Origin: Methanocaldococcus vulcanius M7
Lineage (GTDB): Archaea > AGJL01 > Methanococci > Methanococcales > Methanocaldococcaceae
NCBI RefSeq assembly: GCF_000024625.1
Contig: NC_013407.1
Span: 682,001 to 746,000, forward strand
DNA: 64,000 nt
Reading direction: 5' to 3'
Shown here: piece by piece, positions 16,808 to 19,932 of the stretch
Layout: each line of letters opens with the position of its first letter
Position numbering within the stretch: position 1 is the first letter of the stretch
Notes under the pieces: generated by a model
Database searches by the model: none
Seen by the model: only the letters and a program-made list of their open reading frames with translations
Told to the model about the DNA's origin: nothing
Made by a program: the position numbers and the translations under genes

Positions 16808-16864
16808 CTATTTTCCCATTAGAGCCATCTTAGCCAATAAAGCACTTAACTGAATTCTTTCATT
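16808..16864 (-). pseudogene. Displaced second copy of the rfcS 3' end
   Basis: Read on the minus strand, these 57 bases encode NERIQLSALLAKMALMGK and a TAG stop, identical in protein sequence to the last 18 residues of the intact rfcS (16935-16991). The two copies differ at 11 nucleotide positions, all synonymous, including TAG for TAA. There is no start codon or upstream frame; the sequence directly upstream is palindromic element A. It is either the former end of rfcS, pushed away by the element, or a copy carried in by it. Confidence 0.88.
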
Positions 16865-16934
16865 CCATAGGGCTCCGCCCTATTGGTATACCCGGGGATG
16901 CATTGCCTCGCTACGCTCGACAATACCTCTTAAA
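16865..16934 (-). repeat. Palindromic GC-rich element A at the rfcS 3' end
   Basis: A 70-base GC-rich element directly after the rfcS stop codon. On the minus strand it begins TTTAAGAGG, forms a hairpin with arms ATTGTCGAGC and GCGAGGCAAT, continues GCATCCCCGGGTATACC and ends with a second hairpin AATAGGGCGGAGCCCTATGG. Its first bases and last 30 bases are nearly the same as those of element B beside cfbD. No transposase or integrase is nearby. The duplicated rfcS tail starts immediately at its far end, as if the element inserted with, or carried, a 57-base copy of the gene end. Confidence 0.8.
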
Positions 16935-18569
16935 TTACTTTCCCATTAAAGCCATCTTGGCAAGCAATGCACTCAACTGAATTCGCTCATTAGCTCCTTC
17001 AACTATTCTAAAGTCGGTCTCTCCAATAGCATCTGCTAACTCAACCTTCTTCCTTTCATCAATATCTAAATTATTTATCTCTCTAAACATCTGATTCAAT
17101 ATATCCTCTCCACTCATTCCCCATTCGACCATAAGCTTATACAATAAATCCCTTGCTTCAATAAACTTTCCATTTAAAGCTAATTCCATCATCTTTTTAA
17201 CTTCCTCAGGTCTTGCCCTTGATGAGACCTTATAAACAATCTCATCATCTATAACATCACTCAAAGCTGCTGCTGTCTGCAAAACATTTATTGCCTTTCT
17301 CATATCTCCTTCAGAAACATAGATTATTGCATCTAAACCACTCTCAGTTAAATTCAAACCTTCTTTTTCAGCAATCTCTTTGAGCTTTTTGGCAATATCC
17401 TCCTTTTTTAATGGAGAAAACCTAAATATTGCACATCTTGATTGAATTGGAGGAATGATCTTGCTTGGATAGTTGCAACTCAAGATGAAACGAGCTACAT
17501 CTGAATATTTCTCCATAGTTCTTCTTAAAGCGTTTTGTGCATCTGCTGTTAATGCATCACTCTCATCTAAGAATATAATTTTAAATGGAACATCCCCAAT
17601 TGGCTTAGTTCTCGCAAAGTCCTTAACTTTTGTTCTAATTACATCTATCCCTCTTTCATCTGACGCGTTTAGTTCTAAAAAGTTGTCTCTCCAATTTTCT
17701 CCAAATAAGTCCCTTGCTAAACATAAAGCAGCGGTTGTATTATGCAGTATAGTTGGTAAATTCCCACCTATAAAGTTGTGATATTTTGGAACATGTAAGT
17801 CATAGATTGTGAATTCACCATTTAATTGTTCAATTTCAACAATTTCGTCCCAATATAGTTGATTTTCATGTAAGAATATAAGATATAATATTGCATCCCT
17901 TAACTTATCATCTATATTGCCATCTATTGACTCTAATTTGTAGAGAATTTCTTTTAAAACATCTCTACCTAAATCAACATCTAAATTTAATTTTTCTGAT
18001 AAATAGTTTAATATATTTTCATTTATAATTAAACCTTTTCCTTTTAATTTTTCATCTTTAAAGACAAAACCATCTTTTTTATAAATAATATTACATGGAA
18101 CTGCTAACTTATCTCCAACTTTTAAGTTCTCTACCTTTTCCCATTTTATTTCTCCATTTTTGTTGTTTATTAATAAAGGATGATAAGTAGTTACCTTCAA
18201 CTCTCTACCCATTTTGGTTTTTATTTTTATCAAAGTGTTGGTTTTATCTTTATAAACATACTGCACATCGAACTCTCTGATTTTTCCATCTTCATCAATT
18301 CCTAAAACTTTTAAGTTGTTGGTTAAAGTTGCTCCAAATTTTCCATTGCTTATCTTTTCAACAACATCTCCAATCTCTCTAATTTTTCCATTCACAATAA
18401 CCTTTGTATCTCCTGTTAGGCATTTTCCAACCCCTGGAGGTCCGCTAAATAATAAATGCGGCATGCTCTTTTTTTCAACATATTTCTTTAATCTCTTTAC
18501 TATTTCATCCTGTCCAACAATATCATCCAATGTCTTTGGTCTATACTTCTCTACCCATGGTTTCTCCAT
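16935..18569 (-). CDS. rfcS: Replication factor C small subunit interrupted by a mini-intein
   Basis: A clamp-loader ATPase subunit that opens PCNA at primer ends. I start it at ATG 18569 behind GGTGATAATA, giving EKPWVEKYRPKTLDD at the N-terminus and dropping four residues of a longer frame. The Walker A motif SGPPGVGK is split by an intein and resumes TTAALCLAR; after splicing the protein is 316 residues, the normal length. Walker B is FLDESDAL, the sensor/arginine finger region is LRRTMEKYS, and SRC is in IQSRCAIFRF. The C-terminal collar ends LLAKMALMGK. A second copy of that end lies downstream beyond element A. Confidence 0.94.
   Translation of the reverse strand: MEKPWVEKYRPKTLDDIVGQDEIVKRLKKYVEKKSMPHLLFSGPPGVGKCLTGDTKVIVNGKIREIGDVVEKISNGKFGATLTNNLKVLGIDEDGKIREFDVQYVYKDKTNTLIKIKTKMGRELKVTTYHPLLINNKNGEIKWEKVENLKVGDKLAVPCNIIYKKDGFVFKDEKLKGKGLIINENILNYLSEKLNLDVDLGRDVLKEILYKLESIDGNIDDKLRDAILYLIFLHENQLYWDEIVEIEQLNGEFTIYDLHVPKYHNFIGGNLPTILHNTTAALCLARDLFGENWRDNFLELNASDERGIDVIRTKVKDFARTKPIGDVPFKIIFLDESDALTADAQNALRRTMEKYSDVARFILSCNYPSKIIPPIQSRCAIFRFSPLKKEDIAKKLKEIAEKEGLNLTESGLDAIIYVSEGDMRKAINVLQTAAALSDVIDDEIVYKVSSRARPEEVKKMMELALNGKFIEARDLLYKLMVEWGMSGEDILNQMFREINNLDIDERKKVELADAIGETDFRIVEGANERIQLSALLAKMALMGK
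17739..18422 (-). other. Mini-intein within rfcS Walker A motif
   Basis: A 228-residue intein inserted after the P-loop lysine. Block A is CLTGDTKVIV starting at the Cys encoded at 18422, block B is LKVTTYHPLLI with the Thr-x-x-His pattern, block F is FTIYDLHVPKYHNFIGG, and block G ends ILHN before extein Thr. Joining the flanks restores GPPGVGKTTAAL. The region between blocks B and F is about 110 residues with no LAGLIDADG motif, so the homing endonuclease is absent or reduced to a linker. M. jannaschii RFC carries three inteins; this gene keeps only one. Confidence 0.92.
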
Positions 18570-18612
18570 TATTATCACCAAAAATTTTTATAGATCAATA
18601 TAATCCCTAACT

Positions 18613-18666
18613 TTATTCTAATGCATAATCCAAAATCTCTCCAAATCTTGACTTAACAATGTCTCT
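18613..18666 (-). pseudogene. Displaced former 3' end of cfbD
   Basis: On the minus strand these 54 bases read RDIVKSRFGEILDYALE and a TAA stop. The first 14 residues repeat residues near the C-terminus of the intact cfbD, with only one synonymous change in 42 bases (18886-18927 is the live copy). The final ALE and stop look like the original end of the gene. Upstream of this copy is element B, so there is no start codon and the tail cannot be translated as part of CfbD. Confidence 0.85.
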
Positions 18667-18885
18667 CCATAGGGCTCCGCCCTATTGGGATACCCGGGAT
18701 GCATTTACTTCTTAACGGAAGTAAATGCCTCTTAGATTACAGTGGGGCTGAACGAAGTGAAGCCCCACTCTGAGGTATAGTAATCGCCCATGGGCGAGTA
18801 ATGAAATCCGTAGGATTTCATCTGATAGGAGCTTTGCTCCTATGCATGTATTGCCTCGCTAATGCTCGGCAGTGCCTCTTAACAT
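18667..18885 (-). repeat. Palindromic GC-rich element B fused into the cfbD 3' end
   Basis: About 219 bases made of consecutive hairpins, read on the minus strand from the gene: GTTAAGAGGCACTGCCGAGC with its GCGAGGCAA arm; ATAGGAGC/GCTCCTAT; ATGAAATCC/GGATTTCAT; the perfect palindrome TCGCCCATGGGCGA; GTGGGGCT/AGCCCCAC; a second CTAAGAGG followed by CATTTACTTC/GAAGTAAATG; then GCATCCCGGGTATCCC and AATAGGGCGGAGCCCTATGG. Both ends match element A. The first bases provide the last cfbD codons and its TAG stop. No protein is encoded in it. Confidence 0.82.
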
Positions 18886-19932
18886 ATAATCCAAAATCTC
18901 TCCAAATCTTGACTTAACAATATCTCTTTTTCCTAAAACCTTTGCATGTGCATCTAATTCAACAATTGCATAATCATAAATTTCCTTTATTGGATGATAG
19001 GTTCTTGGTCCATCACTTATACCTATCTTTATTATATTTTTGTCTATTTTTTCAATTGGTAAAGCGTGAGGAACACCAGAGACAATAACTGCATCAACAT
19101 CCAAATTTTTTAATATTTCAACTGCCTTCTCTCCAGTTATTGCATACTCATCTAAACCTCCGATAGTATAATCTACATTAAACCTTTTTAATATATTTTG
19201 TGCATCTTTCCTTATCTTTGGAAGTCCTTTATTTATATCCAAATTTGCAATATTTATACAGTTAAAATACTTATTTAATACAATTAGAGGATGAGCAAAT
19301 AAATAGGCGGTCTCTTTCTTAGCATTCAACACACATGCTATTTTTCCATTTTTTTCTTTTAAATTTTTTAATACGTTGATTGCTTCATTTAAATCATCAT
19401 CATAACTTGGCTTTATATATTCTTTCTTTGCCATTCCCCTCTTTTTTTCAACCTCTGTCGCTTTTTTTAATAAAAACTTCTGTCTCTCAAACTCTTTCTC
19501 ATCAATAATGCCTAATTTTAAAGCTGACTCCATTGCCTTTATTGCCCCAACTGTGTTATCTCCACTACCGCTATGCACTTCAACTGGGATAATTGTTGCT
19601 CTATCATCATCTATAAATTCCCATAAATCCTCTCCAATAATCATGCTCGCACACGTTCCAACGATACCGATCATTGGCTGTTCTTTATTTAATTCTCTTT
19701 TTAAATATTCAATTGCATAATCCAGGGCTTTTTTTAAGTTTTCTGAAGCTCCAAAAACAATGGCATTTTCATCAATATTGCTTGTAAAAACCCTAACTCC
19801 ATCTAACTCTAAAAGTCGTGCAGTTCTGAAACAACAACCACTTGGGCCATGTAAAATTATAGCATCAACACCTAAGTCCCTAAGTTGATACATTGCAGCA
19901 GCTATTGGTGAAGGTCTTGGATGGAATATCAT
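18859..19932 (-). CDS. cfbD: Ni-sirohydrochlorin a,c-diamide reductive cyclase, catalytic subunit
   Basis: A 357-residue nitrogenase-like (NflD) subunit that, with the iron protein CfbC, reduces and cyclises Ni-sirohydrochlorin a,c-diamide in coenzyme F430 synthesis. The N-terminus HPRPSPIAAAMYQLRDLG and HGPSGCCFRTARLLE, then GTCASMIIGEDLW and PVEVHSGSGDNTVGA, are hallmarks with the cluster-ligand cysteines. ATG at 19932 follows GGTGAAATTTA. The last codons (MLRGTAEH and stop) lie in palindromic element B and replace an original ALE ending that is now 219 bases downstream. CfbB, an earlier pathway enzyme, is encoded at 46017. Confidence 0.9.
   Translation of the reverse strand: MIFHPRPSPIAAAMYQLRDLGVDAIILHGPSGCCFRTARLLELDGVRVFTSNIDENAIVFGASENLKKALDYAIEYLKRELNKEQPMIGIVGTCASMIIGEDLWEFIDDDRATIIPVEVHSGSGDNTVGAIKAMESALKLGIIDEKEFERQKFLLKKATEVEKKRGMAKKEYIKPSYDDDLNEAINVLKNLKEKNGKIACVLNAKKETAYLFAHPLIVLNKYFNCINIANLDINKGLPKIRKDAQNILKRFNVDYTIGGLDEYAITGEKAVEILKNLDVDAVIVSGVPHALPIEKIDKNIIKIGISDGPRTYHPIKEIYDYAIVELDAHAKVLGKRDIVKSRFGEILDYMLRGTAEH

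Follow-up and report, generated by a model that had tools for sequence, protein, structure and literature searches.

The gene for the replication factor C small subunit (rfcS) of Methanocaldococcus vulcanius M7 is followed by a short palindromic element and by a second copy of its own 3′ end, and the two copies encode the same peptide with differences at synonymous positions only. The displaced tail is probably explained by a palindromic element that duplicates a long stretch of its target, combined with later exchange or conversion of the two tails. The element would be small and mobile, with many copies in Methanocaldococcus, and would insert with a long, variable target-site duplication (∼20–60 bp). 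Where it lands within the duplication length of a gene end, the gene would be rebuilt on one side and a truncated copy left on the other. The displaced rfcS tail would be such a copy, judging from the remaining pairs and from relatives with a single copy at the site rather than from an observed insertion. Recoding would have come after the duplication: filled and empty versions of the locus may have been exchanged between strains by homologous recombination, or may have converted each other, which would have kept both copies gene-like and left the attached rfcS tail of M. vulcanius with the sequence of an unsampled lineage.

The window, i.e., the whole 64,000-nt stretch of DNA that was analyzed, is part of a genome of 1,761,737 bases in 3 contigs (G000), one of the 14 genomes of the genus that were compared (G000–G013; L-numbers denote extracted loci). 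A match to rfcS was found in 13 of the 14.

The rfcS and cfbD loci

The rfcS gene (16935–18581, minus strand), identified by an NCBIfam match, contained one intein and formed a complete reading frame up to its own stop. Its attached tail, the last 18 codons and TAA (16935–16991, minus strand), was the divergent copy in sequence comparison. Directly downstream lay E2 (16865–16934, minus strand), a short element copy of 70 nt with two hairpins, and then the displaced tail (16808–16864, minus strand) of 18 codons and TAG, native-looking in sequence comparison. The tails were direct copies with 82% identity over 56 nt. They differed at 10 of 54 coding bases and in TAA/TAG (11 of 57), all differences were synonymous, and both translated to NERIQLSALLAKMALMGK-stop. 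Alignment and translation thus confirmed the arrangement described in the first-pass annotation, including the rebuilding of the rfcS end by the attached copy.

A degenerate pattern of the tail peptide with three mismatches allowed gave a single match in each of 11 genomes of the genus, two matches each in G000 and G008 and none in G009, while the same pattern read backwards had no match in any of the 14 genomes. Two rfcS tails were therefore found only in G000 and its sister genome G008. The second tail of G008, on contig C60, had the same right junction as that of G000, CCCTATGG followed by AATGA; it carried one changed residue and had lost its stop. The first-pass annotation had held that both copies evolved as real gene ends before coming together, and had named two observations that would speak against it. 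A tail in between the two copies was absent from the 11 genomes with a single tail; nonsynonymous change in a close relative was present in part, in this displaced copy of G008. Contigs C60 and C26 of G008 shared a 69-nt end inside the element; because the same sequence also begins C26, we only infer that the two contigs are adjacent.

The region between cobK and the displaced rfcS tail measured 180 nt in G000. In G008 (L063, 3204–10685) it held a McrBC-like pair, a glutamine amidotransferase and other genes, as read by eye, and the ORF list of these extra 7.5 kb, also read by eye, contained no integrase.

The same arrangement occurred at the gene next to rfcS, ∼1.8 kb away, where two tails flanked a longer version of this hairpin element (18613–18927). 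This gene, cfbD (Ni-sirohydrochlorin a,c-diamide reductive cyclase catalytic subunit; 18859–19932, minus strand; NCBIfam), has a frame that enters the element and ends in DYMLRGTAEH-stop. By sequence comparison, its attached tail (18886–18927, minus strand) was followed by E1 (18667–18885, minus strand), a long composite element copy of 219 nt, and by the displaced tail (18613–18666, minus strand), which ends in DYALE-stop, as does cfbD in the one-copy genomes G004 and G001. The tail copies were identical at 41 of 42 positions. At 18877–18890 the attached cfbD frame reads DYML before the element, as in one-copy G012 (DYMLSKI-stop) and unlike the displaced DYALE-stop; from sequence, the attached end is possibly another foreign end. 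A displaced cfbD tail was also present in G008, at a junction identical to that of G000, in an assembly without the attached cfbD tail.

The element and its flanking repeats across the genus

The element query had matches in 12 of the 14 genomes (E ≤ 0.001), of which a few were to rfcS tails only, because the query also held these tails. An alignment of 30 short copies, selected out of 36, showed the hairpins to be kept by compensating changes: 99.2% of the cells were paired, and 8 of 17 hairpin pairs had changed on both sides, a value reached by none of 500 shuffles. At gathering scores, the element had no RNA-family match in the window, L062 or L063, and at E ≤ 0.1 the only matches in L210, L230, L115 and L116 were two tRNAs. 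The inserts at cas4 and RLI of G012 (L210 and L230) had in common a longer sequence of ∼390 nt with several potential hairpins and no Rfam match at E ≤ 0.1. The names cas4, SMC and RLI are from NCBIfam-type protein matches, those of SMC and RLI being to partial sequences and below whole-protein cut-offs.

At least 94 distinct element copies were counted among the extracted loci, and the 93 with enough flanking sequence were used. Twenty of these were set aside as CRISPR-adjacent, 19 of which also scored 30 or more. Of the 73 non-CRISPR copies among the matches listed, 37 had a direct repeat that began where the element ends on the right, compared with 3 of 219 control segments, three of which were taken at shifted positions of each locus and tested alike; the other 36 copies had no such repeat at the threshold. 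A permuted-pair null was dropped, as CRISPR repeats and shared sites inflated it. The distance from the element to the right copy of the repeat was 0–5 nt in 36 cases and 14 nt in the remaining one. Repeat length was 20–62 nt, with one of 84 nt, and was at least 29 nt in 29 of the 37. The inserts between copies measured 53–89 nt or 124–383 nt. Among the 37, L042, with one of the longest inserts, proved on inspection to be a CRISPR-like repeat missed by the filter, and several others represent one target gene that was hit in more than one species. With inserts of 53–383 nt there is no room for an integrase gene between the two ends.

Most repeats lay at the ends or starts of protein genes or at tRNA 3′ ends (position classes overlap). 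A gene 3′ end with the body to the left of the element was found in 23 of the 37, and one with the body to the right in 6, of which 5 had in addition a gene end or gene start to the left. Gene starts with the body on the left accounted for 7, and gene starts on the right for 6, all with a 3′ end on the left. Five were tRNA 3′ ends (2 left, 3 right; one with the odd ARAGORN label tRNA-Stop), and one was neither a gene end nor a tRNA. Protein gene bodies, whether at a gene end or start, lay mostly on the TTAAGAGG (left) side, and tRNA genes on either side. In CRISPR-adjacent copies, the right end of the element abutted the first base of the repeat. At L247 (1277–1640), the element and the CRISPR repeat were themselves doubled (182 nt, 99% identical) at one end of the array, probably the trailing end given the repeat orientation.

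Several pairs were near-identical (35/35, 20/20, 41/42, 48/50 and 55/58). Each element copy had duplicated its own target, and no single target sequence was common to all copies. One-copy sites were found in relatives for cfbD (G004, G001, G012 and G007), RLI (G008), cas4 (G002) and rfcS (11 genomes), and support reading the flanking repeat as a probable target duplication. At cas4, the displaced copy ran into downstream sequence found in the one-copy G002. Some targets recurred, namely cas4 in G000, G004 and G012, SMC in G012 and G004, RLI in G000 and G012, and rfcS and cfbD in G000 and G008; for several of these, the most economical explanation would be common ancestry and partial decay. The RLI end of G000 (L233) held two different elements in tandem and three tail copies, the last degenerate, and G008 was single-copy there. 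At RLI of G004 (L244), the left half of the element was followed by other sequence; a cargo island at this site was considered and rejected, no second RLI tail being present in the 19.9 kb examined.

Origin of the two rfcS tails

Over codons 1–298 of rfcS, G000 differed per 54 nt by 3.4 from G008, 4.2 from G004, 4.8 from G012, 5.6 from G007, 6.0 from G001 and 6.4 from G002. The attached tail had 11 differences per 54 from both G008 and G004, a value that none of the 281 earlier 18-codon windows reached for either genome. It had 12 differences from G007 (4 of 281 earlier windows as high), 11 from G001 (10 of 281) and 8 of 54 from G012 (34 of 281), whereas the displaced tail had 6 from G008 and 4 from G002. 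Relative to six relatives of the clade, the attached tail had 5 private states in its 18 codons, compared with 10 in the other 298 codons (P = 0.0011), and the displaced tail had none. In a change-point scan against G008, divergence rose at codon 304, five codons into the duplication (permutation P = 0.011). Against G004, the best change was at codon 46 (P = 0.024), and the other four relatives gave no significant change; significance at the tail was thus obtained with G008 only. Private states, the contrast in divergence and the change point against G008 together give moderate support, within the limits of sequence comparison, to the attached tail being the odd copy and the displaced tail native-looking, divergence rising where the duplication begins or close to it. 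No donor of the odd tail was found among the genus genomes compared; G012 was rejected, its tail differing at 8 of 54 positions and the rfcS body being nearer to G008.

Under neutral decay of one copy and selection on the other, 10 synonymous differences out of 10 at rfcS would have P ∼ 1e-4. The pattern thus does not resemble a new duplicate decaying neutrally, which agrees with the first-pass annotation, and it extends to other pairs. Across 20 gene-end pairs, 43 differences were synonymous and 16 nonsynonymous (P = 4e-7), and 33 and 16 without rfcS (P = 1e-4), compared with a neutral expectation, one copy being neutral and the other purified, of ∼40% synonymous; the P values assume that changes are independent, and some genes enter them in two species. 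The pairs were picked by hand, and gapped pairs were counted only to the first gap. Left out were L042 (1 to 1) and L107 (0 to 1), both CRISPR, L047 (one codon), L097 (a gene start), rows without a gene, and the right-entering cases with the stop outside the repeat or at its edge (L113, L129, L145, L167, L178, L187 and L198; together 0 to 4). Nonsynonymous differences equaled or outnumbered synonymous ones in L111 (5 to 6 nonsynonymous), L160 (3 to 4), L189 (2 to 2), L115 (1 to 2), L105 (1 to 1) and L199 (0 to 1). When the displaced tails of cfbD and rfcS were compared between G000 and G008, 13 differences were synonymous and 4 nonsynonymous (P = 1e-5, with the neutral fraction taken as 0.25).

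An old target duplication followed by drift alone, with the all-synonymous rfcS pattern as luck, is improbable given this excess over the 20 pairs and between the sister displaced copies, even though some displaced copies do decay: rfcS in G008 as described above, cas4 in G004 and G012 (frameshift, nonsense) and probably the second SMC tail of G002. Gene conversion within the locus, with no exchange between strains, could by itself have kept the tails gene-like after a target duplication. It would account for cfbD copies that match almost perfectly within G000, yet differ at 7 of 54 positions between the displaced copies of G000 and G008 at the same right junction. We nevertheless consider it unlikely as the whole explanation, as it leaves the five private states of the attached rfcS tail, against none in the displaced one, unexplained. 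Exchange between strains, as in the preferred reading of target duplication with later exchange or conversion, would reach both copies. Since the displaced cas4 copy is continuous with the flank of one-copy G002, recombination with an empty allele can refresh a displaced copy, and the attached copy, being continuous with the gene body, is likewise refreshable; such refreshing is consistent with the excess of synonymous changes as well as with the foreign look of the attached rfcS tail. For cas4 itself, the data rank neither the attached nor the displaced tail as native or foreign. Against the preferred reading stand the 36 non-CRISPR copies that had no flanking repeat at the threshold, the lack of a PF01609 or PF00078 match in G000 and of a donor for the odd rfcS tail, the decayed displaced copies, the pairs in which nonsynonymous changes equal or exceed synonymous ones, and the left-side bias of protein gene bodies, which plain target duplication does not predict.

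The first-pass annotation had offered two other origins, and neither was supported. The element, or a larger integrative ancestor of it, might carry a recoded rfcS 3′ end and integrate site-specifically in the tail, leaving the old end displaced, as the available part of PMC6379469 describes for prophage e14 at icd. That precedent, the native look of the displaced tail beside a foreign-looking attached one and the same right junction in G008 would all fit. The same element, however, sits between copies of many different gene and tRNA 3′ ends, which one attachment site cannot match, and several pairs are 95–100% identical; such near-identical copies of each element's own target point to long target duplication instead. 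The lack of an integrase beside the G008 copy, on reading by eye, and of any exact match to the rfcS tail pattern in viral contigs also weigh against a carried end, which has only a slight chance of being correct. It is extremely unlikely that a divergent allele replaced rfcS as a whole and left the old tail behind. G012 and G000 do have the residue pair VARF and a single intein in common, but only the tail departs: codons 1–298 are nearest to G008, and sites agreeing with G008 or G012 are mixed along the gene. A per-window comparison with 12 relatives led us to reject this replacement. The intein number of rfcS (window 16935–18581, loci L059–L071) varied across the genus, from 0 in G002 to 1 in G000, G012, G001, G007, G011, G003 and G013, 2 in G005, G010 and G006, and 3 in G008 and G004.

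A more tentative proposal, to which we give a fairly low probability, is a form of homing, in which excised or fragmentary DNA made of the element and one gene-end copy recombines with the same gene end of a recipient, the 20–60 bp tail serving as the homology arm of the element. First insertions would be made by an enzyme that is neither RVT_1 nor DDE_Tnp_1 and has a strong orientation preference. Each transfer would then attach the recoded tail of the donor and displace the native one. Gene, tRNA and CRISPR array ends would be repeated landing sites, unbroken by the non-coding element, which would spread via the host's own gene ends.

Relation to known elements

The element family is probably that of the palindromic repeats described in M. 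jannaschii (Suyama, Lathe and Bork, 2005), likened here through the descriptions of citing papers. As cited in the accessible parts of PMC2229807 and PMC2996958, those repeats are palindromic, dispersed and partly fused to protein genes; the present elements are alike in genus, palindromic nature and dispersal with gene fusions, and also have conserved hairpins. Palindromic repeats are common in microbes, and how they move without harm to dense genes is mostly obscure. Duplications that reach far enough to restore a gene end would be an answer for one family and would yield a rule testable at each copy, and displaced tails would be markers of past recombination between these archaea. The literature searched, with most subscription journals (including the 2005 description) outside its coverage, held no report of long target duplications in Methanocaldococcus, nor of the combination of a non-coding hairpin element with many gene ends; the long duplications may be new for this family.

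Integration at a protein gene end is known from Escherichia coli, where e14 is a tyrosine-integrase prophage and phage 21 also integrates at icd. According to the portion of PMC6379469 consulted, integration of e14 in the end of icd rebuilds the gene and leaves a displaced end of 163 bp. It is a prophage with one target, whereas the present element is non-coding, from 53 nt upward, and has many targets. An integrase-type element at a gene end would have a common target and an integrase between the two ends, and neither was found. The insertion sequences IS1549 and IS1634 produce long variable direct repeats of 8–514 bp on insertion (PMC2266710, in part). They are full insertion sequences with a transposase, whereas DDE_Tnp_1 (PF01609) had matches in 5 of the 14 Methanocaldococcus genomes, 4 above the cut-off, and none in the other 9, which include G000. 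A MITE of an IS4/IS1634-type element would thus fit the long, variable duplication (20–62 nt, one 84 nt), but not the lack of a PF01609 partner in G000.

A retroelement using target-primed reverse transcription would be expected with a reverse transcriptase; RVT_1 (PF00078) had no match in any of the 14 genomes, and a control search was positive in 3 of 14 well-known genomes. Integration of the Cas1 type, as by CRISPR spacers or casposons, gives a near-constant duplication of one CRISPR repeat or ∼15 bp, whereas the duplications outside CRISPR arrays were 20–62 nt. Shorter duplications are also described in the parts seen of PMC2229807 for the small repeats YPAL and RU-2 (3–26 bp) and of PMC4046053 for casposons (1–27 nt), compared with the predominance of repeats of 29 nt or more here. 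In Rhs, another C-terminal end takes the place of the attached one, which is moved downstream via a proposed circular intermediate (PMC2935791, in part); the Rhs tips are unlike each other, whereas the two ends described here encode the same or nearly the same peptide. A count table in the available part of PMC12306157 includes M. vulcanius M7 and M. bathoardescens.
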